The notes beneath the pieces were generated by a model that was given only the letters and a program-made list of their open reading frames with translations, did no database searches and had not been told where the DNA came from. The position numbers were made by a program, and so were the translations under genes. A DNA stretch of 35,736 nucleotides from Lachnospiraceae bacterium (GTDB lineage Bacteria; Bacillota; Clostridia; Lachnospirales; Lachnospiraceae). The stretch spans positions 1-35,736 of the forward strand of contig JAFUFL010000055.1 of assembly GCA_017469935.1 (NCBI GenBank). The letters are read 5' to 3'. Positions 6,916 to 35,587 of the stretch are shown here, piece by piece. Positions within the stretch are counted from its first letter, which is position 1; every line of letters begins with the position of its first letter.

Positions 6916-6952
6916 CTATTTCTGCCGAGCCGTGGATATGTTTGCGCGGACA

Positions 6953-7143: not shown

Positions 7144-7149
7144 GTAAGC

Positions 7150-7277
7150 GGGAACTTGTCTACTGATTGCTGCCTGTTCGCAAAAACGCGGCCAGGAACA
7201 TATCAACATTTTGCCTGTTCGTCAGGAACATATCAACCGATTTTTGGCGCTTGTCCGTTATCGGGAACATGTCGACA
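7150..7277 (-). mobile_element. Solo IS21-like terminal region (four internal repeats)
   Basis: Four copies of a 14-nt motif, consensus GGGAACATRTCRAC on the plus strand, begin at 7150, 7194, 7224 and 7263. Read on the minus strand the last copy starts TGTCGACATGTTCCC. A TG-starting end followed by several internal repeats of this kind is typical of IS21-family termini, where the transposase binds. No istA or istB reading frame is present, so this would be a solo end or deletion remnant. The family call is by resemblance only. The whole interval 6916-7288 has no gene. Confidence 0.4.
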
Positions 7278-7288
7278 AGCTGGAAGAT

Positions 7289-8008: not shown

Positions 8009-8094
8009 GGTACTTTCTCCTACACACATGGAATGATTCTTTGTCCGTCTCTCCCCGGCAAATCCCGATTGTATATCCCTCAATAAGTATAGCA

Positions 8095-8126
8095 TAAAGA
8101 AAGGCCCGCTGGAATACCAACGGGTC
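8095..8126 (-). terminator. Terminator after the PrsW-type gene
   Basis: On the minus strand, GACCCGTTGG-TATT-CCAGCGGGCC (one mismatch, one G-U pair) followed by TTTCTTTATG. It separates the two intramembrane protease genes. Confidence 0.65.
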
Positions 8127-8263
8127 TGAACATTTGAATGGTGGAGCGTAGCGGCACGGCGGCACGCCATCGCCTTTTCATCTAATCACTCATCTACTCA
8201 CATTCCCATAATCCTTTTGTTTCAGTTTACTCTTCTTTATTGCTTCCCATGTGTTCAGCTCTG

Positions 8264-9025
8264 CTATTGCTGTTGCAGCAGCTCCTGTTTGTCGCCGTTC
8301 CTGCTCCATGCACCGATTTTCCTGAGGAACAGGATCAATGCGATGAGGGTTCCTATCATAGCCGCAATGGCACCGATCACCATCGGGATAAGATAGTTGT
8401 AGTATGGCAGGTTTGACAGCTGATCCGCAGTTAAGCCCGCCAGATCTTTAGTGCTGCCGACAACCGACATGAGCCCTATGATAAACATGTCGAATGCGGT
8501 GTGGACCAGAATAGGTACTGCCAGTGACAGCACGTGAAACTTGAACTGTCCTGTGACACGGGCTTTGCCGTAATAATATCCCATGATTCCCTGGAACAGG
8601 ATATGGCCCGGCAGGATCGCCCGGACAATAGTTCCGGCACCTTCAAACAAATAAGTTACATCCTCCAGAAGAGTGAATCCGATACCAACCGCGATCGCTG
8701 CTATGATCACATCCAGCCAGCAGACAACTTCCCTGTTCTTCCTTATTGCAAGACGGAAGACGATGTATTTGATGATCTCCTCGGTCAGCGACGCAGTGAT
8801 CAGCGCCGTCAGAAAACCGCTGATGATCGGGTTCATACCATAGAATGTATCCTCCTGAATAGGCAGTACCAGTGTCAGGCAGAAGAACAGGATCACTCCC
8901 AATGCACCGAATAATACGAACTTGATGACCGCTTTCCTGGAATAAGGTTCTCCGGTCTTTTTCTTGAGTACCCAGGCCAGAATCAGAAAACACACAGCGA
9001 ACTGGGCAAGTGCTGCAAAAATCAT
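8264..9025 (-). CDS. PrsW-family intramembrane metalloprotease
   Basis: 253 residues with about seven or eight membrane segments. The family signatures are TEEIIKYIVFR (the EExxK/R box), a conserved acid in GIGFTLLEDVTYLF, LPGHILFQGIMGYYYGKA with the metal-ligand His, and VPILVHTAFDMF with the last His and Asp. PrsW in Bacillus makes the first cut in an anti-sigma factor; many clostridial homologues have no known target, and no sigma/anti-sigma pair is visible here. GGAGG lies 7 nt before the ATG. The ATG overlaps the stop of a short decayed frame as ATGA, so the present ribosome binding site lies inside that remnant. Confidence 0.88.
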   Translation of the reverse strand: MIFAALAQFAVCFLILAWVLKKKTGEPYSRKAVIKFVLFGALGVILFFCLTLVLPIQEDTFYGMNPIISGFLTALITASLTEEIIKYIVFRLAIRKNREVVCWLDVIIAAIAVGIGFTLLEDVTYLFEGAGTIVRAILPGHILFQGIMGYYYGKARVTGQFKFHVLSLAVPILVHTAFDMFIIGLMSVVGSTKDLAGLTADQLSNLPYYNYLIPMVIGAIAAMIGTLIALILFLRKIGAWSRNGDKQELLQQQ

Positions 9026-9170
9026 TTTTTATCCTCCATAATAAAAGGTATAAGACCATCAGCTATGTTAGCCAAGGAATCCAGTGTAAAATACCCTGAG
9101 CCTCTGTCATATTTGTTGCTTTCCTTCAGCGCAGGGACAAGAAAATTTGTTGCTTGTCGGCGTCCCCCTT
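9022..9170 (-). pseudogene. N-terminal remnant of a PLD/helicase-type gene
   Basis: A short frame encodes ATNFLVPALKESNKYDRG, then SGYFTLDSLANIADGLIPF, then ends as MEDKK-stop. The pattern LIPALKxSxxYDRGxGYFxxxSLxxIAxGL is the opening of phospholipase-D-like nuclease/helicase proteins found in defence and DNA-processing loci (family knowledge). Only about 45 residues survive. The downstream end runs into the ribosome binding site of the PrsW-type gene and the upstream end into the phosphatase pseudogene. It is a deletion scar and not a working gene. Confidence 0.5.
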
Positions 9171-9182
9171 CTTGTAATGGGG

Positions 9183-9885
9183 TCAGTCTTCCCTTCTCCC
9201 AAGATACTTTAGGCACAGCATCGTCACGTCATCGAACTGCGGCGCTCCGTCCGCAAACGCATCGACCGCCTCCCGCATATGTGCAATAACCTCCTTCGGC
9301 TGTGTGTCCCGGTTCCGATTCAGTGTGCTCACGAGGCGGTCCTCGCCGAACATCTCCATGGCGTTGTTGGTCGCCTCCGGCACACCGTCCGTATAGACGA
9401 AAAGACTGTCGCCGGGGTGGAGCTCGAACTCCCGCACTGTATATTTTGCCATCTTACTGATTCCGAGCGCCATATTATGCCTGTACCTGAGCACTTCATA
9501 CTCTCCGCCCGCGCGCTTCATGACCGGGTTTTCGTGCCCCGCGTTGCAGGCCTTGCCGCGTCCGGTGGAAATCTCGATCACTGCCAGCCTCATCGGCAGC
9601 ATATTTACCTGAATATCCGATGCCAGCCTGAGCTCCTCATCCAGCCTGTCCAGCTCGGAGATCATGGAGACAATGTCCCGCATCTCGTTCCCGGCCTCCC
9701 GGTTATCCATCACACCCCTTAGAAATTCGAAACTATTTTCATCCGCCGTCTTGATCCGGCTGCGGGCCGTGATCCCGACCTGGTCCTCCGGATGCTGCGC
9801 ATTATACCGCTCGACTCCCTCTGTCACGAGCGAAGCCAGGTACTGCAGCGTGGAGCGGCTGTCCGTCTTGGAAAAAAGCAAAAAC
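9183..9885 (-). pseudogene. SpoIIE/PP2C-type phosphatase with the catalytic core deleted
   Basis: The open frame joins two parts of a stage II sporulation E-type serine phosphatase. The first part (FSKTDSRSTLQYLASLVTEG ... AGNEMRDIVSMISELDR..., then ELRLASDIQVNMLP) is the lead-in that normally precedes the PP2C domain. It joins MRLAVIEISTGRGKACNAGH directly, which is the second half of that domain, then HPGDSLFVYTDGVPEA and QFDDVTML. The usual DVGGDFYD and DVSGKG segments, which carry metal-binding Asp residues, are absent: a deletion of very roughly 90-100 residues. The 5' end is also missing, since the frame enters from the upstream MscS gene without a start site. Most likely non-functional. 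Confidence 0.75.
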
Positions 9886-12879
9886 TTAGGACATTTTTGA
9901 CGTATCCGCTTTATTAACTGCGGCGTCTCCCAGATTGATGGTGATATTGGACTGGGCGTACTGCAAAAGTTTCCGCTCGGCCATGGACTGCAGAGCCCGG
10001 TTAATGTCAAACCTTATGGCCATCATGTGCTCTTCCGCTCCTTCCGCGGAGATGCTGACGATCATTTTATCCTCATTGAATTCATTGATACCGTTAAATC
10101 TCGGTCCGCTTATGATATAGGGGTTTTTCTGCGCGACCAGAGGCAGTTCCTCGTCAAACAGCTTTGTAAGTTCATCGATGGACATAGTGACGGGCAGGCT
10201 GATCCTGACCACGCACACGGATGTCTGTTTGCTGAAATTGATCACGCTTCCGATCTCATGGTTGCTTATGGTCTTGACATCTTTGCTACCGCTAACGACC
10301 TTTGTAGAGCGGACGCCAATCTCCGTAACCTTTCCTTTGAAGTCTCCGATCTGAACGATGTCACCTACGTAGTAGGTTCTCTCAAAGACAATACTCAGTC
10401 CGGCCAGTATATCCGCCACGATGTCTTTGGCCCCCAGCGAGATGGCCAGTGACAAAAGACCGATCGAAGCCAGCAGCGTTGCCGTGTCGACGCCCAAAAA
10501 GCTCAGTGAGACGCAGACCGCCCCGATAAACATGGCGTAATTGAGGAAACTGCGGACCAGTTTGAATACTGTCTCTCCCCTCAGATCTGTCACACTGACC
10601 AGCATGAGGGTGATCACCTTTACAATCAGGTAGGCCAGATACTCAACGCAGAAGGTCACCAGCACGGCGATCACGGAGAAGAGGTTGATACCCTTGGTCC
10701 AGTTCCCTCTTATAACGAAGGTAAGTACAGAGTGCCTGGCGAGCGGCAGATTCCCATAGGAGACAAGAATCATGACCACCAGCAGGATACCGGTCAGAAT
10801 CTGCATGATCGTCTTGGCCTTGTTCTCCGGCAGCATATCGCGCCACGTGACAGCCAGCGAATCCATGGAAGGCGCTCTCTGCGCGATCTTCTGCATATAC
10901 TCCTCAGACGTTTCTTCCATCCGGAGTGCATAGCGCTCATAGTTTTCTTCGGTGTACTCCTTAAGCGCATATTTTGCCGTGATCACACTTCCGAACAGGA
11001 AGAGCCCGCCGGAAACAAGAGCAAGCAGCAGTCCGAGCCTTGACATATCGGTTGCGTCCATCATGTAAAAATACATGCTGCCGCCGACTTCTCCGGTGAT
11101 GCCGAAATACCACTCGTCATCCATGAAATAATAATTCATATAGCGGTCTTTCAGCCCCCTGGGGTCAATTCCCAGGCTCTCCATATTTGCCCCTTCATAA
11201 GCCTTCCTGCTGCAGGAGACAATTCTGTGCGTCTCGGGATCGATCTCCATGATCACCCGGTCCCGCGACTGCATTCTCTGGTAGATCTGTTCCTTGATCT
11301 GCGCTGTAATCTCCTCCTTTTCCTCTTCCGCAGAGGATCCCAAGGCAGGCAGCGCGATCAGAAGAGCGCCATAGGTGCCTTCTTTACCGGGTACATCATA
11401 GCGGATTCCGACAAAGCTGCGCGTATCCCCGGTGATCATGTCCTTTTCAGGCTCATGTACAATAGAGGAAACTCCTCTCAGAAGCCTTCTGAAATCATGT
11501 AAAGGATCGGTCTCATCTTCCGGCAGGATAAAGCCTGTATAATCCCTGCTGCAGGCAATCTCTGCCCCGTTTTCATCATAGAGCATCAGATAGTCTGCGG
11601 AAATCGCGTCCGAGATCTCGGCAAGTCTGTTTTTGTTTAGAAACGCGGGATCCTCTGTGAGCATGGAAGAGACAGTTTCTCCCAGGCCCAAATATCTTTC
11701 CGTGTCCAGTTCGCCCAGAGCCAGCCTGACACCTCTCCCATCCTCGATCTGCTCCTCCAGCATATCCAGTACATTACTGCCGATCCTGTTTTCGTGGTAC
11801 ATATACTGCACCATGACCGTGGTAAATGCAAACAGAGTAACCACCAGCGTTGACATGATCGTAAGCCTGGTCGTGCGTCTCTTAACCACTTCAGGGCTGT
11901 ACTTCACCCTGTGTTTCTCATCCAGGCGTTCCCTTCTGACCAGCCACTGTACGGAATAACACCATGTGATCAGCCCTGCCAGCATAATAGTGGCAAAGAG
12001 GACTTGCCAGATGATATCGCCCAGAATTGCCATCTTCTCGTTTTCCACGGAGTTGCAGCATATGGCCGTATAGCCGGTATTTTCTATTTCGATGGGGAAA
12101 CAGACAAATTCTTTGCCGCTGCCGATCTGCAGCGTGAAGTGTTCTTTACTCAGTTCTTCCCGGGAGATTCCCATTTCTTCCAGCGTGCTGTATTTTGAAA
12201 AGCCCTTTGTCTTGTAAAGGATAGAATCGCCCTCTTTTTCCGGATCGGAAGACGGGACTATAAGCAGTTCAATATCGTTCACGTTCTGAACCGCCTCCGT
12301 CAGCCTGACCGCAGAAATGCGGGATCTGATATAGTCGTCATACTCCGAGACGGATGTCCATCTGACAAAATACCATTCTCCCGAAATGCGGCCGCTGGTC
12401 AGAAGCACCTGGTTCTCAGGTGCGCTCTTTTCCTCCGCATCTGCGGATCCGCTATCTGCCGCCATTTCTGTCCGTGTCTGCTGATACTCGCCGGTCACCA
12501 TGTCCGCCGTAAGCGCAGGAAATAAGCCGTCCGCTCCCGGCGGCAGCTCCACTTTCCCGTCATGAACACGGACAACCATGCTGTTCTCCCAAAGGCGGTT
12601 TCCCGAAAACTCCCCGCCCGAAATCTGCGGTGCAAGCCTTATGGCCGCCAGCCTGACCCGGGCGTTTTCGTCCTCGCAGAAGCCTCTGCCGACCTCGTCC
12701 GCTGATCTGCCGTATCCCTCGATCATGCCGCGGACAGATTCCGTCTTGTTCACACTGTCCGCCATGACCAGTTCCCGGTTATAATGCTGTTCTACGCCAA
12801 GCATTACCGCCGTATAGGCGACCAGAAATATGATCGCAATCGCTATCGTTTGTTTCAGTCTTTTAACCGGATCCTTCAT
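9886..12879 (-). CDS. Very large MscS-type mechanosensitive channel with sensor-like N-terminal half
   Basis: 997 residues, over three times the length of E. coli MscS. A membrane anchor at residues 10-28 is followed by an extracytoplasmic region (about 30-280), a membrane segment near 285-310, another segment near 340-365, a second extracytoplasmic region (about 370-610; YLMLYDENGAEIACSRDYTG..., RIVSCSRKAYEG) that reads like a double-CACHE ligand sensor, then a run of membrane segments. The MscS core is at about 785-900: a Gly/Ala/Ser-rich TM3 (LLASIGLLSLAISLGAKDIVADILAGLSIVFE) and the beta domain (YYVGDIVQIGDFKGKVTEIGVRSTKV). The start at 12879 has a weak AAAGAGA site. It likely opens under membrane tension, perhaps modulated by a ligand (inference). 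A defective phosphatase gene follows. Confidence 0.9.
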   Translation of the reverse strand: MKDPVKRLKQTIAIAIIFLVAYTAVMLGVEQHYNRELVMADSVNKTESVRGMIEGYGRSADEVGRGFCEDENARVRLAAIRLAPQISGGEFSGNRLWENSMVVRVHDGKVELPPGADGLFPALTADMVTGEYQQTRTEMAADSGSADAEEKSAPENQVLLTSGRISGEWYFVRWTSVSEYDDYIRSRISAVRLTEAVQNVNDIELLIVPSSDPEKEGDSILYKTKGFSKYSTLEEMGISREELSKEHFTLQIGSGKEFVCFPIEIENTGYTAICCNSVENEKMAILGDIIWQVLFATIMLAGLITWCYSVQWLVRRERLDEKHRVKYSPEVVKRRTTRLTIMSTLVVTLFAFTTVMVQYMYHENRIGSNVLDMLEEQIEDGRGVRLALGELDTERYLGLGETVSSMLTEDPAFLNKNRLAEISDAISADYLMLYDENGAEIACSRDYTGFILPEDETDPLHDFRRLLRGVSSIVHEPEKDMITGDTRSFVGIRYDVPGKEGTYGALLIALPALGSSAEEEKEEITAQIKEQIYQRMQSRDRVIMEIDPETHRIVSCSRKAYEGANMESLGIDPRGLKDRYMNYYFMDDEWYFGITGEVGGSMYFYMMDATDMSRLGLLLALVSGGLFLFGSVITAKYALKEYTEENYERYALRMEETSEEYMQKIAQRAPSMDSLAVTWRDMLPENKAKTIMQILTGILLVVMILVSYGNLPLARHSVLTFVIRGNWTKGINLFSVIAVLVTFCVEYLAYLIVKVITLMLVSVTDLRGETVFKLVRSFLNYAMFIGAVCVSLSFLGVDTATLLASIGLLSLAISLGAKDIVADILAGLSIVFERTYYVGDIVQIGDFKGKVTEIGVRSTKVVSGSKDVKTISNHEIGSVINFSKQTSVCVVRISLPVTMSIDELTKLFDEELPLVAQKNPYIISGPRFNGINEFNEDKMIVSISAEGAEEHMMAIRFDINRALQSMAERKLLQYAQSNITINLGDAAVNKADTSKMS

Positions 12880-23385: not shown

Positions 23386-24363
23386 ATGAAATGGGGAATT
23401 CTGGCGGCAGGAACGATCGCCGCTAAATTTGCACGAACTGTAAACGCTATGACCGGTGAAGGGGAGACTCTCGTCGCCATTGGCTCTCGAAATATCGAAA
23501 AGGCCAAGGGCTTTGCCGACGAACACGGCATCCCCAAGGCGTACGGTTCCTACGAGGAGCTGACGGCGGATCCCGAAGTGGAGGCCATCTACATCGCCAC
23601 GCCCAACAACCTGCATTATGAAAACGCCCTTCTGTGCCTTGGCGCCGGCAAGCATGTCCTCTGCGAAAAGCCTTTCACCACGAATGCAGAAGATGCTCAG
23701 GCGCTGTACGCATTGGCGGAGGAAAAAGGGCTCTTTATCATGGAGGCCTTCTGGATCCGCTTCCTGCCTCTCTATGAAAAGCTTCTGGAGATCATCCGTT
23801 CAGAGAAGTACGGAAAACTCCGCCACGCCCGCTGCGACTACGGTTTTATAGCACAGGGCGCGCGCCGCGAGCGCAAGTTTAAGTCCGAGCTGGGCGGCGG
23901 AGCTCTGCTTGATATCGGAATTTACAATCTGGGCTTCCTGCACATGATCATGGGAGAGTCCCCGGAATCCTTCACCTCAGAGGTGCATTTCAATGAGTTC
24001 GGAACCGACGACTTCAGCGTCCTGCAGCTAACCTATCCGGGCGGCCGCACGGCACACGCCCTGCAGACCATCGGCATGCAGATTGACAGACAAGGGGCAC
24101 TCTATTTTGACAAAGCTTCCGTGTATCTGCCCGACTTCCAGGGCGCATTTTCCATGACGGTCCAGCCGGTGGGCGGTGAGACCTACACGGTGGAGTGCCC
24201 GCCCGACGTCAACGGATTCGAGTATGAGATCCGGGAGGCCTCCCGGTGCGTGAAGAACGGAATGTCGCACAGCGATATCTTCCGGCCCGAGGACAGCGTC
24301 GCAGTGCTTGCGCTTATGGACGAGATCAGAAGTTCCTGGGATATGCGGTTTGCATTTGAGTGA
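23386..24363 (+). CDS. Gfo/Idh/MocA-family oxidoreductase
   Basis: 325 residues. The N-terminal Rossmann fold starts MKWGILAAGTIAAKFARTV, a G-x-A-G-x-I variant of the nucleotide loop, with VAIGSRNIEKAKGFADEHG binding the cofactor. Then come YIATPNNLHYENALLCLGAGKHVLCEKPFTTN, where CEKP carries the conserved Lys, and FIMEAFWIRFLPLYEKL. The C-terminal sheet domain includes GGGALLDIGIYNLGFLHMIMG, whose D-I-G-x-Y is the catalytic-site pattern. It uses NAD(P) on a sugar or sugar-like substrate, resembling dihydrodiol dehydrogenase-type members. AAGGAG precedes the ATG by 7 nt. The stop is 17 bp before the start of the GH3 gene, so a joint sugar-catabolic role is likely. Confidence 0.93.
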   Translation: MKWGILAAGTIAAKFARTVNAMTGEGETLVAIGSRNIEKAKGFADEHGIPKAYGSYEELTADPEVEAIYIATPNNLHYENALLCLGAGKHVLCEKPFTTNAEDAQALYALAEEKGLFIMEAFWIRFLPLYEKLLEIIRSEKYGKLRHARCDYGFIAQGARRERKFKSELGGGALLDIGIYNLGFLHMIMGESPESFTSEVHFNEFGTDDFSVLQLTYPGGRTAHALQTIGMQIDRQGALYFDKASVYLPDFQGAFSMTVQPVGGETYTVECPPDVNGFEYEIREASRCVKNGMSHSDIFRPEDSVAVLALMDEIRSSWDMRFAFE

Positions 24364-24380
24364 TGCAGGAGAATAAAAAG

Positions 24381-26888
24381 ATGGGCAAAGCCAAACCTCA
24401 TGAAATCAAGAATATCAAGCGCCTGCGCCGCCACCTGGGAGAATGCACCGTCCTGCTCAAAAAAGACGGCTCATTCCCCTTGGAAAAGCCAGGGACCATC
24501 GCGGCCTACGGAAGCGGCGTCCGCCACACCGTCAAAGGAGGCACAGGCTCCGGGGAAGTCAACTCCCGCTATTTTGTCACTGTAGAGAGAGGTCTCACAA
24601 AGGCGGGTTTCACCATTGTAAGCGGCGGCTGGCTCGATGAATACGACCGCATCCGTGATGACAATAAAGCCGCTTTCTACAAAGCCATCAAAGCCAAGGC
24701 CAAAAAAGAGAAGACCAATGTCATCGCCGCCAGCATGGGCGCTGTCATTCTGGAGCCCGAGTATGAACTTCCGCTCAGTTACGGCGCGGACGCCGCCATC
24801 TATGTGGTCGGCCGCAACTCCGGCGAAGGAAATGACCGTCTGGACGTGAGGGGCGACTATCGCCTCACGGACACGGAAGTGCGCGACATACTGGCTCTCA
24901 ACAGCCGGTACGAGCGCTTCATGCTCGTCATTAACGCCGGCGGTCCGGTAGACCTCTCCGAGGTCATGGAAGTCCGCAATATTCTGGTCCTCTCCCAGCT
25001 CGGCGTAGAGACCGGGCTCGCGCTGGCCGCTCTTCTGCTCGGAAAACTCTGCCCTTCCGGCAGGCTCACCACGACCTGGGCGCCCTGCAAGGACTACGGC
25101 ATCACGAGCTTCGGGGAGAAGGATGACACGCTCTATTCGGAGGGGGTCTTTGTCGGCTATCGCTATTTTGACAAGGCAGGCACAAAACCCGCCTTTCCCT
25201 TCGGCTACGGGCTCTCCTACACGGAATTTGCCCATTCGTTCACGGAGATCGCAGCCGACGGTCCCGTAGTGCGGCTTACCGCCCGCGTGGAGAACACCGG
25301 TAAGTTCCGGGGCAGAGAAGTCCTGCAGGCCTACCTCTCCTCTCCCGCCGGCAAAATAGAGAAGGCCCCCAAGTCCCTCGCCGGCTTCGCCAAGACAGCC
25401 GCCCTTGCGCCGGGCGAGAGCGAAATTGTCACCCTTTCCTGGGATCTGCGCGACATGAGCAGTTTCGATGAGGCGCGCGCTTCCTATGTGTTGGAGGCCG
25501 GCCGCTATCTCGTTCATCTGGGGACAAGCAGCGCAGACACCGCTGTGGTCGCGGCTCTGGAACTGGACGAAGAATGCGTTGTGCGCAAGGTAAAGAACTG
25601 TCTTGCCGGGAAAGCAGCGGAAAAGGATGTTTCGGGAGACGCTTCCGCCGAATCCGCTTATTCCGTCGCGAGTGAAGTGCGCTCTGAATCAGCGGATCCC
25701 GCCACTCCCGGTGCACTCTCAGAATCCTCTGATTCAGCCAAGAGTGACAGGCTGCCTCTGATCCGCATGGATCTGAGCGCCTGCGAGACCGAAATCATCG
25801 ACTATGCCCGGTCCTCCTTCGAGGATCCTGTTCTCGACAATATGAGCGACGAAGAGCTGGCCTATCTGAATATGGGCGGCTTCAATCCCAAGGGCGGCAT
25901 TCTCAGTGTCATCGGAGACGCCTCCGGCCGCGTGGCCGGCGCTGCCGGCGAGAGCACTTCCGCGCTCGAAGAGAAGGGCATCGGCTGCATCGTCGTCGCG
26001 GACGGACCTGCGGGCCTTCGCCTTGCGCGGCACTACTACAAGGACAAAAAAGGAATTCACGCCATCGGATCCACCATGCCCGAGACGATGCTGGAGCTTC
26101 TTCCGTGGCCTGTCTCCTTGCTGATAAACTTAACTTCCAGGCCTCCCTTCGGCGCCCGAATATACGAGCAGTACACCACCGCTCTTCCCATCGGGACAGC
26201 CATCGCCCAGAGCTGGAATCCGGAGTTTGCCCGCCTCTGCGGCGACATTGTCGGAAGTGAAATGGAGATCTTCGGCGTGGACCTCTGGCTGGCGCCCGCC
26301 CTCAATATTCACCGAAGCGTTCTGTGTGGCCGCAACTTCGAGTACTTCTCAGAGGATCCTCTGATCTCCGGCAGATTCGCGGCAGCCCTGACCCGAGGCG
26401 TGCAGTCTCACAAAGGCAAAGGCGTCACCATCAAGCACTACGCCGCCAATAACCAGGAGACCAACCGCTACGGCAACAGCTCCAATGCCTCGGAGCGCGC
26501 CCTCAGGGAAATCTACCTGCGCGGCTTCGAGATCTGCATAAAGGAGAGCCGTCCGCTTGCCGTCATGACCTCCTATAACCTCATAAACGGCGTTCATACC
26601 TCTGAGAGTGTTGAGCTCTGTCAGGATATCCTGCGCAGCGAATTCGGGTTTAAGGGTCTTTTGATGACGGACTGGATCGTCGGAGGCGACTTCCTGAGCG
26701 GCGGCGGCAAATACGGCGCTCCGTCTGCGCCGCGCGTCGCGGCTTCCGGACACACGCTTTTCATGCCGGGAAGCAAGAAGGATTATGAAGAGCTTATACA
26801 GGGAATAAAAGACGGAATCATCTCCCGGGAGGAGCTTAAGTGGAATGCCCACTGGCTGCTGGAGACGCTTAAGATCACGCACGGCTGA
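24381..26888 (+). CDS. Circularly permuted glycoside hydrolase family 3 enzyme
   Basis: 835 residues. The start is the ATG at 24381, 9 nt after AGGAG; two earlier in-frame starts overlap the upstream stop without a site. The domain order is swapped: the GH3 C-terminal sandwich comes first (GTIAAYGSG, GADAAIYVVGRNSGEGNDR, LNSRYERFMLVINAGGPVDLS, TTTWAPCKDY), then a fibronectin III-like domain (FGYGLSYTEFAHSF ... ARVENTGKFRGREVLQAYLSSP), then a Ser-rich linker, then the catalytic barrel (GIGCIVVADGPAGLRLARHY, PIGTAIAQSWNPEFARLCGDIVGSEM, CGRNFEYFSEDP, GVTIKHYAANNQETNR). The nucleophile is Asp764 in LLMTDW. This order is known for some rumen-bacterial beta-glucosidases. There is no signal peptide, so it acts on imported oligosaccharides or glycosides. 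Specificity is not readable. Confidence 0.93.
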   Translation: MGKAKPHEIKNIKRLRRHLGECTVLLKKDGSFPLEKPGTIAAYGSGVRHTVKGGTGSGEVNSRYFVTVERGLTKAGFTIVSGGWLDEYDRIRDDNKAAFYKAIKAKAKKEKTNVIAASMGAVILEPEYELPLSYGADAAIYVVGRNSGEGNDRLDVRGDYRLTDTEVRDILALNSRYERFMLVINAGGPVDLSEVMEVRNILVLSQLGVETGLALAALLLGKLCPSGRLTTTWAPCKDYGITSFGEKDDTLYSEGVFVGYRYFDKAGTKPAFPFGYGLSYTEFAHSFTEIAADGPVVRLTARVENTGKFRGREVLQAYLSSPAGKIEKAPKSLAGFAKTAALAPGESEIVTLSWDLRDMSSFDEARASYVLEAGRYLVHLGTSSADTAVVAALELDEECVVRKVKNCLAGKAAEKDVSGDASAESAYSVASEVRSESADPATPGALSESSDSAKSDRLPLIRMDLSACETEIIDYARSSFEDPVLDNMSDEELAYLNMGGFNPKGGILSVIGDASGRVAGAAGESTSALEEKGIGCIVVADGPAGLRLARHYYKDKKGIHAIGSTMPETMLELLPWPVSLLINLTSRPPFGARIYEQYTTALPIGTAIAQSWNPEFARLCGDIVGSEMEIFGVDLWLAPALNIHRSVLCGRNFEYFSEDPLISGRFAAALTRGVQSHKGKGVTIKHYAANNQETNRYGNSSNASERALREIYLRGFEICIKESRPLAVMTSYNLINGVHTSESVELCQDILRSEFGFKGLLMTDWIVGGDFLSGGGKYGAPSAPRVAASGHTLFMPGSKKDYEELIQGIKDGIISREELKWNAHWLLETLKITHG

Positions 26889-27571: not shown

Positions 27572-27757
27572 TCAATCCGACTTCAGTACGCGGTAAAACA
27601 CGATGCCCACAGCCAGCAGGACCAGTCCTGCCGCAAGGCAGGCCGGTGCCGCGAAGGCCCCAAGCCCTGCATCTCCGAGATAAAGTCCGCCAATCAGAAA
27701 AAACACACTGACCAGCATCGCAAGAAGACCGATTATGCGGCAGGTATTCTTACTCAT
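27572..27757 (-). CDS. Small two-helix membrane peptide, last gene of the transporter operon
   Basis: 61 residues: a basic start MSKNTCR, a helix IIGLLAMLVSVFFLIGGLYLG, a short loop, a helix PACLAAGLVLLAVGIVFYRVL, and a KSD tail. Its ATG overlaps the stop of the ABC gene before it as ATGA, so it is translationally coupled and very likely made with the transporter. It resembles no family I can name. Size, topology and coupling suggest an accessory or stabilising subunit of the ABC complex (inference). Confidence 0.75.
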   Translation of the reverse strand: MSKNTCRIIGLLAMLVSVFFLIGGLYLGDAGLGAFAAPACLAAGLVLLAVGIVFYRVLKSD

Positions 27758-29505
27758 GCGCTCACCTCCCTGTTCCAGCTGCTCATCTCTTTCTGCAGCT
27801 CCACCATGCGCCGGTACATGCCGTTCTTCTCCATGAGTTCCTCATGACTGCCCTGCTCGGCAATCCTGCCGTGCTCCAGGACCAGAATCCTGTCCGCCCC
27901 CCGAATGGTGTTCATCCTGTGGGCAATGGCCAGAACCGTCTTATCCCGGCACAGTTCACTCATGGCTTGCTGAATATAATGCTCATTGTCCGCATCGACG
28001 CTGGCGGTCGCCTCATCGAGAAGGATGATCGGCGCGTCCTTTAAGATACAGCGGGCGATGGAGATCCGCTGGGCTTCGCCGCCCGAGAGACTGGCACCGC
28101 CTTCTCCCACGATGGTATCAAAACCGTAAGGCAGACTCATGATAAAGTCGTAGCATCGCGCCTTCTTTGCAGCCGACACGACGTCCTCATAAGAGGCATC
28201 CGGCCGCCCCATGGCGATGTTGTTGTAGATCGTATCCTCGAACAGGTAGACCTTCTGAAAGACCATGCTGATCTGCGCCATCAGAGTCTCCATGGGCAGA
28301 TTTCGGATATCGACACCCCGCAGGCAAATTTGTCCTTTCTGAACATCCCAGAACCGGGCCAGAAGATTGGCGACGGTCGTTTTGCCGCTGCCCGACTCGC
28401 CGACCAGGGCGATCATCTGCCCTCTGTCCGCAGTGAACGAAATGTCGTGCAGGATTTCCTCCTCGCCGTAGGAAAAATACACGTGAGAAAACTCGATTTC
28501 GTGCCGCGCTGTTTCAGGCATTCCCTCTGCACCTTCCATGGCCAGCGTCTTTTCCGCAAATACCGCTTCCAATCGGTCCAGGCAGTTCTCCATGATAGTC
28601 AGCCGGGAGTTCTGCTGAAAGAGGTGTTTAAAGGGCGCAAAAATACTCAGCAGAAAGAGCATGACGCCCACAAAGCCGGCGGCGTCCAACTGCCCTTTTT
28701 CGCAAAGCCATACAGCAAATACAAGGGTCGCCGCAGTTCCCAGCGCATAGACGATCTGCAGCGCTCTCTCCCAGGGCGTATGCTGCCGTTCGAAGGTCAG
28801 GTTGGCCTCGCGGCTCCTCGCAAAGCTTTTCCGCAGCTCGCCCGCGCTCTCGCCGGTAAGCCCAAAGCTCTTAGAGACCCCCAGCCCCTCCGTGTACTCG
28901 ATCACGGCACCAGTCAGGTCCTCAATGGCCAGCTGCCTTGCTGCAGAGTTTCTCATAGACTCGCGGTTCATCGGATAGGCGATCAGAATCGCAGCCAGCA
29001 CCGTGCCGAGGGCTGCCGCTCCCAGAACAGGGTGAAGAGTGTACAGAAACGCCGTCAGTACCATCTGAGAAAAGAGATCACTCACCACTTCCGCCACGAT
29101 GTTCATGCTGTTTTCTTCAATAAAGACCATGTCTGCCGACAGAATGGAGCTGATTCGCCCCAGGTTGTCCGCCGTAAAATAGCCCATGGGAAGCCTTCGA
29201 AGGTGAGCGGCAAATTCTTTGCGCTTTTGGGCGAACACTTCATAGCCTGTGGCCGACTGGAAGCGGTCTGACAGATTCTGGAAAATCGTCCCCAGAGCCA
29301 GAAAGCACAGTAGCAGTGCCGCCGACAGGCAGCACGTGCGCACGTCCGCCGTACCTTCCATCAGCCTTCTGAGCAGCCAGACCGCAGTAAAGATCGGTGC
29401 GTTCTGACAGATGGATTTCAGGAAAGAAAAGAGATAGGCAGTCCGGATCCTCGCGGCGTACTTCCCGCCGCAGAAGACCAGAATGCGGTGTACCATTTTG
29501 ATCAT
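27754..29505 (-). CDS. ABC half-transporter (exporter fold), second subunit
   Basis: 583 residues from the ATG at 29505, which overlaps the previous stop as ATGA and follows GGAGGGGAG. An N-terminal six-helix type-IV ABC domain (residues about 15-300) precedes an ATPase with Walker A GESGSGKTT, Q-loop MVFQKVYLFEDT, signature LSGGEAQR, Walker B IILLDEATASVD and switch His in IAHRMN. All catalytic residues look intact. It should pair with the half-transporter part of the preceding 1080-residue protein. Exporter-fold pairs can export, or import metallophores, as YbtPQ and IrtAB do (family knowledge). The coupling to ECF genes makes an uptake role plausible. Confidence 0.9.
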   Translation of the reverse strand: MIKMVHRILVFCGGKYAARIRTAYLFSFLKSICQNAPIFTAVWLLRRLMEGTADVRTCCLSAALLLCFLALGTIFQNLSDRFQSATGYEVFAQKRKEFAAHLRRLPMGYFTADNLGRISSILSADMVFIEENSMNIVAEVVSDLFSQMVLTAFLYTLHPVLGAAALGTVLAAILIAYPMNRESMRNSAARQLAIEDLTGAVIEYTEGLGVSKSFGLTGESAGELRKSFARSREANLTFERQHTPWERALQIVYALGTAATLVFAVWLCEKGQLDAAGFVGVMLFLLSIFAPFKHLFQQNSRLTIMENCLDRLEAVFAEKTLAMEGAEGMPETARHEIEFSHVYFSYGEEEILHDISFTADRGQMIALVGESGSGKTTVANLLARFWDVQKGQICLRGVDIRNLPMETLMAQISMVFQKVYLFEDTIYNNIAMGRPDASYEDVVSAAKKARCYDFIMSLPYGFDTIVGEGGASLSGGEAQRISIARCILKDAPIILLDEATASVDADNEHYIQQAMSELCRDKTVLAIAHRMNTIRGADRILVLEHGRIAEQGSHEELMEKNGMYRRMVELQKEMSSWNREVSA

Positions 29506-32500
29506 GCGCTCTCCCCTCCTTTCAAGAGCCAGCCGCTGCTCTCCATTGAGGCAGCCCACAGCCTGCGATAGTCCGGGCTCGTCTCCAGAAGCTCCTCATG
29601 ACTGCCCTCGGCCGCGACCTTTCCCTTTCTCAGGACGATGATCTTATCGGCCGACGCGATAGAACTGAGTTTGTGAGCGATGACCAGCACTGTTTTGTTC
29701 CTGATGATGCCCGCGATGGCCTCGTTCATCTTCTGCTCATTCTCCGGGTCAATGAAGGCCGTGGCTTCATCGAGCACAATGATGGGCGCGTCCTTCAGCA
29801 AAACTCTGGCGAAGGCAATCCTCTGGCGCTGCCCGCCGGAGAGCTTGCTTCCGGCCAGACCCGCCGGCGTATCATACCCTTGAGGCAAGCCGAGAATAAA
29901 CTCCTCGCACTGCGCCTTTCGAGCCGCCTCCCGCACTTCTTCATCGGATGCCTGCGGATTGCCGACACGAATATTCTCCAAGATGCTCTTATTGAACAGA
30001 AACAGCTCCTGGGAGACGTAGGCCACCTCACGATTCAGGGCGTCCGGTGTCATGGCGCGCAGGTTCTGCCCTCCGATGCAGATTTCTCCGGCACTCACGT
30101 CGTAGTAATGGCTCAGCAGCCTTGCGATGGTGCTCTTTCCGCTGCCGGACTCTCCCACGAGCGCCGTCATTTTTCCCTCTTCCGCCACGAACGAGACTCC
30201 CCTGAGCACTTCGTCGCTCTTATAGGCAAAGCGCACCTCTTTAAAGCGGACGCTGTGATCCGCCCCTTCGAACTCTGCCGTGCCGCATTTGAGGGGCGCC
30301 CTGTCCAGCGCCTTTTCCAGGGCCTGGATCTTGAAGTTGACCTGTGGAATAGCCCCAATCAGCGCCAGGGTCCTCATGAACATGGGACCGATGGCAAAAC
30401 TCAGACAAAGGGCCAGTACGTATCGTCCTAAAGGCATATGGCCACTCACCACCATCAACGCGCCGAAGGGCAGGGAGTAGAGGACCACATTGGAAAACAG
30501 GCTTCCGTACAGGGCCATCCAAGGCCAGCAGACTTTGTACCAGGCCAGCGCGAAGTCCCTGTATCCGTCTGCGGACTCCTCGAAGTGCCTGCCCGATTCG
30601 CCCTCTCTGCCGAATACGCGCACAACCTCCATGCCTGCTACGTATTCAATAATGGTATTATTGAGGCGCTTTGCGGCGGCAAAATAGCTTCCCATGCGGT
30701 CCATTCCCACGGCAACCATCTGACCGGACGCACTGAAGCCAAAGCATAAAAGGATCACGGTCAGAAGGGCCATCTGCCAGTCCACTGCAACAAGAAGCAG
30801 CAGCACTGCCGACGGAACCGTCAGATTGGCGATTCCCTCCGGAATCACGTGCGCCAGCATCAGTTCGATGGATTCGATGTCGTCGGTGAACAATTTTTTG
30901 ACAGCGCCCGTACCGAGATCCTGCACATTGCCAAGAGGCTGCTTCTCCAGCTTCTCCTGCAGGCTGATCCTCAGGTTTTCCAAGGTGTGATAGGCGGCGC
31001 GATGGCTGAATTGCAGCCCCACCGTATAGGTGACGGCGTAGAGCACGCTGAAGACCAGGACGCTCGCTATGGCGGGCAACGCCGCCCGAAGGCTGATTGT
31101 CCCCTCTGCAAGGATCCGGTCGATCAGCGTATAAACGCCAAAATATGGCACGGCGCTGCACAGTGCCCCTATGATCATGAATGCCACGGCGAGATATGTG
31201 TATTTTTTCCACTGTCCTGCGTACTGCAGAATTTTGCCGAACATGCCCAGTTTCTCTCTTTTCCGGGAGGTGCTCTCTTCGCTCTCCGAGAGGAAATACC
31301 AGCGCATGCGGGCCGCACCTTCCTCATTAAGGGGATAAAAGCCCAGAATCCTTCCGTTCTCCACGTGAAGAATGTGGGTGCAGCACTGCAAGATCAACTC
31401 CGGATCATGGGTGATGATGACCGAGGTGACCTTGTCCTGCATCTGCCGCAGAAGCGATGCGAAGCGCTCCATGCCGCCCCGGTCCAGACCCGATGTCGGC
31501 TCGTCGTAAAAGATAATCTCCTTCCCCGCGCAGATCGCGGAGGCTATGGCCACGCGCTGCTTCTGGCCGCCGGACAGAGAGGCCGGGTGGCGGTCCGTCA
31601 CATCTCCCAATCCCAGCCCTTCCAGCACCTGCTTTGCTTCCTCCGGGGAGGCCGAAGCCCCCAGCATGACTTCCTCCATCACGCTGTCGGAGAAGAGCTG
31701 CCGGTTCACATCCTGCATGACAAGAAAGCTCCGCCTCGCCCGCTCCTTTTCTGTCAGATAGGTGCCGTCAAAAGCCACGCTGCCGCTGCAGGGGATCACG
31801 CCGCACAGCGACTCTGTCAAAGTAGACTTGCCGCAGCCGTTGTCGCCGATCATGGCGATGATGCTGTGAGCCGGAAAGCTCAGGCGATCCACATCCAGAA
31901 TCTGGTGATTTCCGCGGTTGCAGCCAAGGTCCACCGTCTCCAGAACCGGCTTCCCGCCGTGGGGAATCTCCCCGATCAGGGGACTCTTCATCAGCCTGTG
32001 CAGGTCCGTGCAGCGAAGGCCCAGGGCGGACAGCTCCTCGTCGGAGAGTTTCCCGAGTTCCTGTGCCGTAAAGCTCTTTGTGACGATCCCGTCATCCAGG
32101 TAAACAAAGCGGTCCGCCAGGTCCATCAGGTAGTAGAGCCTGTGCTCGGAGACCACGATGGTCTTGCCCGCCTCTTTGATGCGGCGGAGCGTCTCGTGAA
32201 GCCGGGTGATCGCTTTTTTGTCCAGGTTGGAGGAAGGCTCGTCGAGCACAAAGACTTCCGGCCGGGCCGTATAGACGCTGCCGCAGGCGATCTGCTGCTT
32301 CTCGCCGCCCGAGAGTTCGAAGATATTGCGTCCGAGGAGGGCGGAGAGTTTCATGTCCTCCACTGTCCTGTCCAGGCGCCGGCGGATCTCCTCGCGCTCC
32401 ATGCCGAAGTTTTCGCAGCCGAAAACAAGCTCTCCCGTGGTGTCCACGTTGAAGAACTGGCTCTTGGGGTTCTGAAAGACGCTGCCCACCAGCCTGCTGG

Positions 32501-32744
32501 TCTCAGAGAGGGGCGCAGTGGACACGCAGACATCGTCCACCCACACTTCCCCTTCCATCTCTCCGGGATAAAAGTGTGGCGCCAGGCCGTTGATCAGCCT
32601 CGTGAGCGTGGTCTTCCCGCAGCCGGAAGGGCCGCAGAGCACCAGAACCTGACCGGACGGGATCTGCAGAGAAATATTGTCAACGCCTTCGCCCGTGCCC
32701 TGTTCTCCTCCGTAGTGGAAACTGACATTTTTGAATTCGATCAT
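29502..32744 (-). CDS. Triple-ATPase fusion: tandem ECF ATPases joined to an ABC half-transporter
   Basis: 1080 residues in one uninterrupted frame. Part 1 (about 1-235) is a CbiO/EcfA-type ATPase: Walker A GPSGCGKTT at 38-46, signature LSGGEKQQ, Walker B VFVLDEPSSNLD. Part 2 (about 265-475) is another: GDNGCGKST, LSGGQKQR, IIFYDEPTSGLD. After a charged linker (SESEESTSRKREKLG), Met501 opens a complete exporter-fold half-transporter: six membrane helices (about 515-790), then an ATPase with GESGSGKST, LSGGQRQR and IIVLDEATAFIDPE. The ECF pair and the exporter are normally separate proteins. No stop lies between them; a weak internal start at Met501 (GAGAGAAACTGGGC upstream) might also yield a free half-transporter. 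ATGA overlaps occur at both ends. Confidence 0.9.
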   Translation of the reverse strand: MIEFKNVSFHYGGEQGTGEGVDNISLQIPSGQVLVLCGPSGCGKTTLTRLINGLAPHFYPGEMEGEVWVDDVCVSTAPLSETSRLVGSVFQNPKSQFFNVDTTGELVFGCENFGMEREEIRRRLDRTVEDMKLSALLGRNIFELSGGEKQQIACGSVYTARPEVFVLDEPSSNLDKKAITRLHETLRRIKEAGKTIVVSEHRLYYLMDLADRFVYLDDGIVTKSFTAQELGKLSDEELSALGLRCTDLHRLMKSPLIGEIPHGGKPVLETVDLGCNRGNHQILDVDRLSFPAHSIIAMIGDNGCGKSTLTESLCGVIPCSGSVAFDGTYLTEKERARRSFLVMQDVNRQLFSDSVMEEVMLGASASPEEAKQVLEGLGLGDVTDRHPASLSGGQKQRVAIASAICAGKEIIFYDEPTSGLDRGGMERFASLLRQMQDKVTSVIITHDPELILQCCTHILHVENGRILGFYPLNEEGAARMRWYFLSESEESTSRKREKLGMFGKILQYAGQWKKYTYLAVAFMIIGALCSAVPYFGVYTLIDRILAEGTISLRAALPAIASVLVFSVLYAVTYTVGLQFSHRAAYHTLENLRISLQEKLEKQPLGNVQDLGTGAVKKLFTDDIESIELMLAHVIPEGIANLTVPSAVLLLLVAVDWQMALLTVILLCFGFSASGQMVAVGMDRMGSYFAAAKRLNNTIIEYVAGMEVVRVFGREGESGRHFEESADGYRDFALAWYKVCWPWMALYGSLFSNVVLYSLPFGALMVVSGHMPLGRYVLALCLSFAIGPMFMRTLALIGAIPQVNFKIQALEKALDRAPLKCGTAEFEGADHSVRFKEVRFAYKSDEVLRGVSFVAEEGKMTALVGESGSGKSTIARLLSHYYDVSAGEICIGGQNLRAMTPDALNREVAYVSQELFLFNKSILENIRVGNPQASDEEVREAARKAQCEEFILGLPQGYDTPAGLAGSKLSGGQRQRIAFARVLLKDAPIIVLDEATAFIDPENEQKMNEAIAGIIRNKTVLVIAHKLSSIASADKIIVLRKGKVAAEGSHEELLETSPDYRRLWAASMESSGWLLKGGESA

Positions 32745-33493
32745 AGGCCTGCCGCCCCCTTCGTTGAAACCCGTAGTATTATAACTGCCGCCAGAACAGC
32801 GAAAACAGCCATCGCAATGTAGTCCGCCGCGCGGAGCTTCATTTCTTCATAGGAGCTGCGCTTTACGTCAATGTCCATGCCCCTGGCCAGCGCCGCGGCC
32901 GCCAGTTCTTCCATGACGCCCACCGTTGAGAACAAAAGCGGCACCAGTACATACTCGATCGATCTCCACGGGTGTCTCAGCACAGAGCCGAAGCTCAAAG
33001 AGATTCCCCGGAAAGCCATGGCTTTCCGGATGCCGTTCCACTCGTCCTGCACGGTGGGAATAAAGCGGAACAGCACCGCGATGGGAATCACGACCCGAAC
33101 CGGAAGGTGCATGGCCGACAATGCCGACAGGAACTGGCTGATGCGCGTGGTCTGCACGATGAGCAGGATACTGAGGATGGTCGGCAAAGCGTAGAGAATA
33201 AGCGTTGTCACGACCGACACGATGAGCACAACCGCCGGAGCCGGGCTTCCGCCCCTGTCCACCGCCTCCTTGACATAGAGGGCCACCGAAAAGAGGAGGA
33301 ATGCCTTCAAGGCCGTCCAAGGCTTGCCGCTCAGGGCTAAAACAGCGCAGATTGCTCCCGTAAAGAGCAAAATATAGATACCGCTGTAGGTGTACATGCT
33401 GGTCAGGCCGCATGACAGAAATATAAACAGTTTTGTTCGAGGATCAAAGCGCACCAGGGCCTTTGAATCGTCTCCGTAAAGAATGGTATCCAT
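32741..33493 (-). CDS. ECF transporter transmembrane subunit EcfT
   Basis: 250 residues with five or six membrane helices. The family opening (SKALVRFDPRTKLFIFLSC) and the two cytosolic coupling-helix motifs are visible: RKAMAFRGISLSFGS and AALARGMDIDV, variants of the Ala-Arg-Gly signature that docks on the EcfA ATPases. It links the substrate-binding S subunit to the ATPases encoded next. Its stop overlaps the next start as ATGA, and only 3 nt separate it from the S gene before it. Its own ribosome binding site is poor, so translation probably depends on read-through from the S gene. Confidence 0.92.
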   Translation of the reverse strand: MDTILYGDDSKALVRFDPRTKLFIFLSCGLTSMYTYSGIYILLFTGAICAVLALSGKPWTALKAFLLFSVALYVKEAVDRGGSPAPAVVLIVSVVTTLILYALPTILSILLIVQTTRISQFLSALSAMHLPVRVVIPIAVLFRFIPTVQDEWNGIRKAMAFRGISLSFGSVLRHPWRSIEYVLVPLLFSTVGVMEELAAAALARGMDIDVKRSSYEEMKLRAADYIAMAVFAVLAAVIILRVSTKGAAGL

Positions 33494-33496
33494 AGC

Positions 33497-34111
33497 TTAA
33501 ATAATGTTTGCCTTTTCAAAGTGCTTGTTAATGAGCTTCGAGGCGATGAAGACGCCGATCGCCGCGCCGGCCAGAGCCAGTCCGATCTGAATGAAAGCCA
33601 GTCCGTTCACGGCATATTTTGCCAATTCATCGGCAAACTCCTGTCCGTAAAAGCTGACGGAGCGCGCCATAAATTCATCTCTGTGGAAATAGAGCATGGT
33701 ATAAGGGCAGACCATGTTCAGATTGAAAGCGAGGAAGGAAAGCAGGTACATCTTTCTCGACTTATAATTTCCCGCCTTGATGATCAGTTCTGCCGCAAGG
33801 GCGGCGGCAATGGCCAGAACCATGCCCAGAATATTGCCGGAGCAGGCGACCAAGGCGAACAAAACGCCAAGGATCAGGGCCGCGCCGAACTTGTGCACCT
33901 TCAGGACGCACAGTTCATAGACGGTTGCGCAGACGACGCCGACGGTGAAAGGTGCCACGATGTACAGGATCGGGATCGCGCTGGTCCCCAGGACTACGAT
34001 CAGCATCAGCACGATATAGACGGCGCCGAAGGCGCCGGCGTAGATGAGATCCCTGGTGCGCATCTTCTTGTCGTCGTTCTGTGTCGTTTGGTTGATTTCT
34101 TTCTTTGCCAT
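33497..34111 (-). CDS. ECF transporter S subunit, MptE/Trep_Strep-like
   Basis: 204 residues, six hydrophobic segments, no ATPase or signal sequence. AAGGAGAAAAAAC precedes the ATG. The pattern MRTRDLIYAGAFGAVYIVLMLIVVLG ... VAPFTVGVVCATVYELCVLKVHKFGAALILGVLFALV ... NYKSRKMYLLSFLAFNLNMVCPYTMLYFHRDEFM resembles the MptE/Trep_Strep family of substrate-capture subunits found in streptococci, treponemes and clostridia; the ligand of that family is not established. It is the first gene of the operon and defines its substrate. The leader carries an inverted repeat with TetR-like half-sites. Confidence 0.82.
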   Translation of the reverse strand: MAKKEINQTTQNDDKKMRTRDLIYAGAFGAVYIVLMLIVVLGTSAIPILYIVAPFTVGVVCATVYELCVLKVHKFGAALILGVLFALVACSGNILGMVLAIAAALAAELIIKAGNYKSRKMYLLSFLAFNLNMVCPYTMLYFHRDEFMARSVSFYGQEFADELAKYAVNGLAFIQIGLALAGAAIGVFIASKLINKHFEKANII

Positions 34112-34221: not shown

Positions 34222-34248
34222 AAGCCTGGCCGAACCGGCCAGGCTTTC
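34216..34248 (-). terminator. Terminator of the TetR-family gene
   Basis: A 12-bp stem AAAGCCTGGCCG/CGGCCAGGCTTT with loop AAC (34222-34248), then TTTTTACAT on the minus strand. The stem begins at the stop codon, and the U-run merges into the -35 box of the operon promoter. Confidence 0.85.
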
Positions 34249-34885
34249 AGACTTCCCTATTTACTTCTTTTGCATTTGCTTTTTCACTTCTCATTGTCTC
34301 ACCATCTATTGTTCTTAGCAGCGCGTGGAATCCGGCTTCCGAGAAAATCGTCAGCTGTGTGATCAGTCTTTTGACCTCTTCCATGGTATAGCCCCCGTAG
34401 ATCAGTTCCATATACTCCTCAAACTTCATGCGCAGGATGATCCGGACGAGCGCCGGGTCGACGGGTTTTCCCGCATAGCGGTCGAAGACCTCCTGATAGC
34501 TGGGATAAAAAATATCCCGGATCAGATGTTCCTTGAATCCCTCATATTTTGTTCCCCTGGAGCAGTTAAAGAGCAGACGGAATTCATCCTTGTGGGCGAC
34601 AGCATAGGTAATGGAGCGCAGCTCATTTTCAACGCCGGTCGTGAGGTCGGACAGCTCCTGCGCGATCACTTCCCGGTACATGACCCCGAATCCGCTGAGC
34701 ATGGGCTCCACCAGGGCCTCAAACAGTTCCTCTTTTCCGGAAAAGTGTGTGTAAAAAGCGCCCGTGGTGAGACCGGCATTTTTGCAGATGGTCCTGAGGG
34801 ATGCTTTTTCAAACCCTTGCTCCAGGAACTGTTCTTTGCCGCTTTGCAAAAGCAGTTGCCTTGTATTATCTGACGTGAGCATCAT
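34247..34885 (-). CDS. TetR/AcrR-family transcriptional regulator
   Basis: 212 residues. The N-terminal helix-turn-helix is classic: LLLQSGKEQFLEQGFEKASLRTICKNAGLTTGAFYTHFSGKEELFEALV (about residues 10-58). The C-terminal ligand domain is all-helical (DEFRLLFNCSRGTKYEGFKEHLIRDIF...), unlike any I can match to a ligand. GGAG lies 7 nt before the ATG. It probably represses itself and the ECF/ABC operon downstream: its own promoter contains a perfect palindrome and the operon promoter has the same half-sites. The inducer is likely related to the transported substrate (inference). Confidence 0.92.
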   Translation of the reverse strand: MMLTSDNTRQLLLQSGKEQFLEQGFEKASLRTICKNAGLTTGAFYTHFSGKEELFEALVEPMLSGFGVMYREVIAQELSDLTTGVENELRSITYAVAHKDEFRLLFNCSRGTKYEGFKEHLIRDIFYPSYQEVFDRYAGKPVDPALVRIILRMKFEEYMELIYGGYTMEEVKRLITQLTIFSEAGFHALLRTIDGETMRSEKANAKEVNREV

Positions 34886-34914: not shown

Positions 34915-34943
34915 AAAATAACACGTGTTATCGGGAAAGTCAA
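34915..34943 (-). promoter_or_regulatory. Promoter and palindromic operator of the TetR-family gene
   Basis: On the minus strand, TTGACT, a 17-nt spacer and TATTTT. The perfect 14-bp palindrome ATAACACGTGTTAT (34918-34931) covers the spacer and -10 box, the usual place for an autorepressor. Confidence 0.7.
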
Positions 34944-35587
34944 TTGCATTGCTGCTTGTAATAATGGCGGGGTTTTTGTGTTATTTCTGTGTCCCCGTTT
35001 GCATTTACAGATCCCCTATGCTACACTTCTCATGGCACTCGGAACAGCACCGTTCCACTGTCCACATCCCCGTCATCATCGGATCCATCGTTCTGGGCCC
35101 TGCTGCAGGCGCATTCTTAGGCGCCGTATTCGGGATCTGCTCCATGATCAGCAATACGCAGGCACCCACGCTTTTATCATTTGCATTTTCCCCGTTCCTG
35201 AGTACAACCGGCCTTGTCGGCGTCATTAAGGCTCTCTGGATCAGCATCGGCTGCCGCGTCATGATCGGCGTAGTTTCCGGCTGGCTCTCCATCGCGCTGA
35301 AGAACATCAATGTTCCTACCGCTGTGCGCCTTGCCATCACCGGCTTTGTCGGTTCCATGACCAACACCGTATTCGTCATGGGCAGCATCTATCTGCTCTT
35401 CGCGCAGCAGTACGCTGAGGTCAAGAACGTGGGAATGGAGGCCGTCTTCGGCCTGGTAATGGGAACTGTTGCCGCTTCCGGCGTTCCGGAGGCCATCGCC
35501 GCGGCGATCCTGGTCACCGCCATCACCGGTGGACTGATGAAGTCCGGCGTGCTTCGCCCGACGACGGCCGTTACGGGTTCTGTCTGA
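34925..35587 (+). pseudogene. ECF transporter S subunit lacking a proper N-terminus
   Basis: The open frame is 220 codons. From about residue 44 it reads as an ECF S subunit: TVHIPVIIGSIVLGPAAGAFLGAVFGICSMISN, then RVMIGVVSGWLSIALKN, FVGSMTNTVFVMGSIYLLFA and VPEAIAAAILVTAITGGLMKSG, with five membrane segments. The first 43 residues (CYFCVPVCIYRSPMLHFSWHSEQ) do not look like the expected first helix, the only far-upstream start is a GTG inside the TetR operator, and no ribosome binding site is seen before any candidate start. I infer a 5' deletion or frameshift that fused the gene to the tetR-like promoter region. It might once have shared the EcfT and ATPases of the nearby operon. Confidence 0.55.

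Follow-up and report, generated by a model that had tools for sequence, protein, structure and literature searches.

An uninterrupted 1080-codon frame in the window, that is, in the whole 35,736-nucleotide stretch of DNA analysed here, joins two ECF-type ATPases to one half of a type IV ABC transporter in a single polypeptide. Tandem arrangements of an ECF transporter and a type IV pair are already known in unfused form, and it is the three-ATPase chain that is unusual; no description of such a fusion was found in the open-licence literature searched. The earlier note on this DNA knew of no standard family with this order. The fusion is indeed unusual, but the unfused ECF and type IV pair is a known kind of operon (eqbHIJ with eqbKL, siaDE with siaFGH), and to that extent the claim is qualified.

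The fusion gene and its gene run

The fusion gene is part of a run located entirely on the minus strand, in the order TetR, hairpin, S, EcfT, fusion, ABC2:

34247..34885, minus strand: TetR-family regulator, 212 aa
34221..34247, minus strand: terminator-like hairpin after TetR, with 12-base perfect arms, a 3-base loop and a T run
33497..34111, minus strand: S component, 204 aa, Trep_Strep/MptD family (Pfam, NCBIfam, fold match)
32741..33493, minus strand: EcfT, 250 aa (Pfam CbiQ), with a 4-base overlap with the fusion gene
29502..32744, minus strand: fusion gene EcfA-EcfA'-ABC1, 1080 aa, ATG start, uninterrupted frame
27754..29505, minus strand: ABC2, second type IV half-transporter, 583 aa, with a 4-base overlap with the fusion gene

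The fusion protein is divided as follows:

residues 1-253: EcfA
residues ~266-485: EcfA'
residues ~486-500: linker
residues 501-1070: ABC1, type IV ABC half-transporter

The fusion frame runs on the minus strand, which the earlier note did not specify, from 32744 to 29502 with no internal stop, and the predicted mass of its product is 118.5 kDa. Pfam recognises three ABC_tran domains and one ABC_membrane domain, and the protein carries Walker A motifs at 38, 300 and 864, LSGG signatures at 144, 390 and 968 and Walker B motifs at 164, 410 and 988. An AlphaFold2 model (16-row alignment, mean pLDDT 73.8, pTM 0.49) includes EcfA from residue 2, EcfA' at 266-485 and an NBD at 832-1069 and, together with Pfam, gives ABC1 six long helices between 501 and 812 followed by one ATPase. 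The intact frame, Pfam and the model bear out the earlier note's description of three ATPase domains and six helices in one frame, and the motif positions agree with its statement that all Walker A, signature and Walker B motifs are intact. A helix occupies residues 474-485 of the model, and pLDDT is below 50 at residues 488-500. With a pTM of 0.49 the packing of the domains is unreliable, which counts against the tethered machine proposed below. Foldseek with the whole model returned generic ABC chains, with TM below 0.4 among the 50 matches listed. The NCBIfam CydD model matched the whole fusion (469 against a cut-off of 435) and was set aside because this score adds up three ATPase stretches.

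The fourth ATPase of the run, in ABC2, has intact Walker A, LSGG signature and Walker B motifs like the three of the fusion, and both ABC1 and ABC2 include Walker A, LSGG, the Walker B Glu and the switch His. EcfA and EcfA' are two EcfA-type ATPases with intact motifs. Taken alone, EcfAA' has ECF ATPases as its best NCBIfam matches, but at 272.4 against 330 and 257.9 against 315 bits these fall below the curated cut-offs, which counts against the reading proposed below. EcfT matches Pfam CbiQ (57.8 bits against a cut-off of 25), and is below the cut-off of the NCBIfam CbiQ equivalog (27.5 against 111.8). Ala-Arg-Gly-type motifs are a hallmark of EcfT, and the sequence contains ARG and FRG. The S component is above the Trep_Strep cut-off in both Pfam and NCBIfam, where the model is named ECF S component. 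Its predicted structure (pLDDT 84.9) has the ECF S component 5edl as best PDB fold match, with probability 1.00 but an E value of 0.02 and no match below 0.001, while a PDB search with its sequence gave nothing significant (5edl, E 0.29). PF09605 was matched in none of the 14 control genomes. With S, EcfT, EcfAA', ABC1 and ABC2 all present, the run supplies what an ECF transporter consists of, together with the two halves of a type IV transporter.

From its position, TetR is the likely regulator of the S-T-fusion-ABC2 run, and a TetR 70-75% identical to that of the window precedes the run in four other loci (L058, L059, L060, L066). The hairpin which follows it has a folding energy of -23.8 kcal/mol (z -4.68); a consensus terminator scan gave no terminator, this hairpin included. 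Just past TetR and divergent from it, the window carries a further ECF S component, from a different family (PF12822, 42.5 against 30.7 bits; 34925-35584, plus strand), which might share the ECF module of the fusion. On the other side of the run, a family 3 glycoside hydrolase (24360-26888, plus strand) has its C-terminal domain (30-287) and an Fn3-like domain (320-391) ahead of its N-terminal domain (587-828).

Distribution, origin and conservation of the fusion

A contig scan yielded 188 stretches that were confirmed; the best 80 of them, corresponding to 79 loci, were kept. The fusion occurs as one frame in 15 of these 79 loci (L058-L070, L078, L079; L077 was left out of the count), always preceded by S and T genes and followed by ABC2, the ABC2 of L063 being cut by a contig end. 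The fused records include those labelled Butyrivibrio hungatei XBD2006, Butyrivibrio sp. LB2008 and Treponema bryantii B25 (B. hungatei and T. bryantii being isolates), together with MAGs labelled Lachnospiraceae, Oscillospiraceae, Spirochaetales and Eggerthellaceae, labels which may be wrong for MAGs. Among 61 genomes searched whole (E 1e-120), the fusion was present in three: the window's own (G000), G025, whose protein is that of L058, and G057, a single-contig genome from another family. The same architecture, which the earlier note had proposed to look for in other genomes, is therefore found elsewhere.

Within the window's genus the fusion is present in 2 of 37 genomes; one further genome (G009) has a split version and the remaining 34 gave no match at E 1e-120. 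An order-wide sample of 392 genomes included 12 with a near-full-length match, five fused (G000, G057, G425, G316, G270) and seven split, not counting a second place in G305. Across the class (391 genomes), there were four near-full-length matches besides G000 and all four were split. In the phylum-wide sample (398 genomes) a full-length match at E 1e-200 occurred in the window's own genome only. The fusion is a conserved minority form and split neighbouring genes are commoner.

The window's genome is in 111 contigs. An assembly artefact is spoken against by recurrence of the frame in independent assemblies, in isolates and in the single-contig G057. The earlier note had considered that a missed stop or frameshift might lie at the junction, or that close relatives might always have two genes: the independent assemblies contain no such interruption, and one close relative (G009) is split while fused relatives exist.

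Several observations were made around these loci. Three plasmid records matched at E 1e-100, the best of which (Subdoligranulum) is in two pieces. A broken relative in Ruminococcus flavefaciens XPD3002 (L077:8010-11122) has a 643-aa frame composed of EcfAA' and the start of the membrane part, followed by a 394-aa frame which matches ABC2 from residue 179, as if the intervening stretch had been lost. In Treponema bryantii and Spirochaetales (L078:1203-19227, L079:6661-19276), the fusion run has another ECF/ABC cluster as its neighbour on the opposite strand. Ten flanking genes chosen for Pfam analysis proved to be of mixed kinds. Those near some fusion runs include a DUF6110 protein accompanied by a P-type ATPase, a flavodoxin alongside a DUF3793 protein, and alpha/beta hydrolases (L061:13283-15853; L067:13238-14453; L058:13896-14681; L061:5788-6546; L069:12274-13140), and are possibly metal-related.

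Where the genes are split, they are only 0-18 bases apart in 17 of 22 pairs, and in four loci (L023, L056, L071, L072) a single in-frame stop alone parts EcfAA' from the ABC gene. Trees were built from 55 chosen rows for EcfAA' (19 fused, 20 split, 16 other) and from 63 chosen rows for ABC1, after L013, L021, L050 and L051 had been dropped as identical or at least 98.8% identical to L058, L067, L049 and L049, respectively. In the EcfAA' tree, 17 fused rows form a clade (99/96), L024 is adjacent (100/99) and L025 is placed apart from them; the test does not reject one clade for all 19 fused rows (p 0.183), which counts against recurrence. In the ABC1 tree the same 17 rows group together (93/81, not starred), and the ABC halves of L024 and L025 come from other parts of the tree. 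Here a single fused clade is rejected, with p-AU 7.5e-06 for all 19 rows and 1.49e-05 for the 18 that remain without L025. Since the fusions are not one clade on the ABC side, either there were two or three separate fusion events or a fused chain later swapped its ABC half. L024 and L025 are long branches and their exact places in the trees are thus unsure.

Purifying selection acts on the linker as it does on the domains. Residues Y470, P471, L472, G476, F484 and R496 do not vary among the 16 fused proteins, and the pN/pS of the linker in comparisons with four close relatives (0.10-0.19) is within or near the range of the four domains (0.09-0.19). The covalent 1:1 link of ECF ATPases to an ABC half put forward in the earlier note is supported.

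Met501 was ruled out as a conserved internal start because Met is present in only 8 of the 16 fused proteins; with GTG in L064 and L070, the position is ATG or GTG in 10 of 16. A Shine-Dalgarno-like motif precedes it in L059 and L064 only, by a test that is weak since the annotated start in the window is also without such a motif. ATG480 is found in the window and its four close relatives (Met480 in 5 of 16), with AAGG or GAGG upstream, AAGG in the case of the window. In L063, the sole candidate start in the region searched is a GTG at 466. The fused family as a whole does not conserve an internal start; in the window itself a minor shorter product may be made.

Relatives of the two transporter parts

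Kinship to YbtPQ and IrtAB was judged from search scores of single-half chains in lists comprising the best 60 of 128, 65, 229 and 224 PDB matches. Double-length chains (P-glycoprotein and others) lead these lists because the scores of both their halves sum, and they were set aside as nearest relatives. With its profile, ABC1 scores 412.9 bits against YbtP (6p6i_A, which we take to be YbtP, the record itself saying only ABC transporter), 367.2 against YbtQ, 348.7 against IrtA, 312.7 against Sav1866 and 308.2 against TM0288 (best 60 of 224 matches). A single-sequence search gave the same leaders at 300.7, 279.5 and 277.4, followed by ABCB9 at 221.8 (best 60 of 65 matches). By sequence score, the chains nearest to ABC1 among the single-half solved structures in the matches listed are those of the siderophore importers YbtP/YbtQ and IrtA. 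The ABC2 profile leaves importers and exporters unseparated, with Sav1866 at 397.0, YbtQ at 378.7 and MsbA at 377.0 (best 60 of 229 matches). The description of ABC1 as an exporter-fold half, made in the earlier note, is right for the fold, but its nearest single-half solved structures among the matches listed are siderophore importers.

Heterodimeric exporters of the TM287/288 type have one degenerate ATPase site. Unlike these, neither ABC1 nor ABC2 includes a non-consensus site. YbtPQ and IrtAB are also heterodimeric type IV transporters and provide the single-half chains nearest to ABC1 among the matches listed, but have neither an ECF module nor an N-terminal EcfAA'; IrtA chains carry ~300 extra residues ahead of the matched part (6tej_A: 355-891 of 908). 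Ordinary ECF importers, with tandem or separate EcfA and EcfA', share S, T and the two EcfA-type ATPases with the run, but their EcfA/EcfA' chain does not run on into a second transporter as that of the window does.

Two streptococcal loci resemble the run in gene content and in published identities, as far as the excerpts drawn on here describe them. In Streptococcus equi, the ECF-like eqbHIJ genes are needed for most equibactin-dependent 55Fe uptake and stand beside two permease-ATPase proteins, EqbK and EqbL, which are 28-30% identical to YbtP/YbtQ; according to the same excerpts, deletion of eqbKL did not prevent the iron phenotype, for which the pair is dispensable, and medium from the mutant was twofold less active, which the authors interpreted as possible efflux (PMC3672683). 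Unlike the window, this locus has separate genes, a DtxR-like regulator and siderophore synthesis genes (PMC3672683, in the part consulted). In Streptococcus pyogenes, the ABC proteins SiaD and SiaE occur with SiaF, SiaG and SiaH (ECF S, T and A) in an MtsR-regulated iron locus, again a pair of ABC proteins together with the ECF parts S, T and A but as separate genes, under MtsR and next to haem uptake genes (PMC6593403, likewise in part). The window's genome has a second, unfused system in the same order as siaDE with siaFGH, TetR-ABC-ABC-S-T-AA', on contig C13 (L020, G000:C13:1-13000; 3048-10011, plus strand).

Other relatives of the ABC pair (for example L082, L084, L117) have no ECF module detected within the locus stretch, where divergent S or T genes may be missed. 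Such pairs indicate that the two ABC halves can be a complete transporter, which counts against a joint machine.

Possible roles of the tether

The best reading, which we hold tentatively and as somewhat short of probable, is that of an ECF transporter tethered to a YbtPQ-like transporter. The run would encode a four-protein membrane machine in which one polypeptide provides three of the four ATPases. EcfA and EcfA' would work as in other ECF importers, docking on EcfT and driving the S component; ABC1, from its adjacency and sequence, would pair with ABC2 as a YbtPQ-like type IV transporter; and the short linker, to judge from the model, would hold the two transporters close together at a 1:1 ratio. 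By analogy with the eqb and sia loci, both parts would most likely handle the same kind of ligand, probably a siderophore-like metal chelate or a tetrapyrrole. The regulator upstream of the run is TetR and not an iron regulator, and no siderophore genes were found among the 15 window proteins scanned; both count against a metal chelate. The tethered reading is favoured by the fused loci (15 of 79), the conservation of the linker, the recurrence of the joint or exchange of its partner, the kinship of ABC1, the unfused iron and haem precedents and the fold match of the S component. The eqbKL genetics (PMC3672683, in the excerpts), the ABC2 scores and TetR upstream count against it.

A near-neutral operon fusion, in which a stop codon was lost between co-translated neighbours and the tether fixes only the dosage of two independent transporters, is possible but somewhat unlikely. 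The short distances between split genes and the lone stops speak for it, as do the rarity of the fused form (5 of 392 genomes in the order sample; in the phylum sample 1 of 398, full-length at E 1e-200, the window's own) and the ABC pairs with no detected ECF module. It accounts less well for linker residues invariant across labelled phyla with a pN/pS of 0.10-0.19, and for a joint that recurred or exchanged partners.

We consider rather unlikely a coupled relay, in which a single ligand would serve both the ECF module and the type IV heterodimer and one ATPase pair would, through its state, gate the other; if true, it would be a mixed type III/type IV ABC supercomplex with four ATPases in a fixed ratio. 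The earlier note had suggested that substrate could be handed over or one half could gate the other; in S. equi the ABC pair was dispensable for the iron phenotype (PMC3672683, in the excerpts).

Less likely still is an import-export loop: the loaded ligand would enter through the ECF part, and the type IV pair would expel it once emptied, or remove a toxic excess. Efflux pumps are commonly under TetR-family control, and TetR stands upstream of the run; ABC2 scores about equally against YbtQ, Sav1866 and MsbA (best 60 of 229 matches), and the weaker activity of eqbKL mutant medium was read as possible efflux (PMC3672683, in the excerpts). Nonetheless, ABC1 is nearer to YbtP/YbtQ and IrtA than to exporters among the matches listed, and all four ATPase sites are intact.

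That EcfAA' and ABC1 are wholly or partly separate products, through an internal start or cleavage, or that the frame is an assembly error, is very improbable: the window's ATG480 after AAGG, the start codons at 501, the motifs in L059 and L064 and the 111 contigs speak for it, but Met480 and Met501 are each confined to part of the family, L063 offers just its GTG, and the same frame turns up in other, independent assemblies as well as in isolates and the single-contig G057.

Streptococcal iron and haem loci, and many of the gut-type bacteria examined, have an ECF importer next to a YbtPQ-like pair. What the natural fusion adds is not a new chemistry but a system in which the cooperation of the two transporters can be tested: it is a single protein with which the co-assembly can be purified, imaged or cut. 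Distant bacteria, across labelled phyla, keep the same fusion, with ABC halves drawn from more than one part of the tree; this suggests that the two machines belong with each other.
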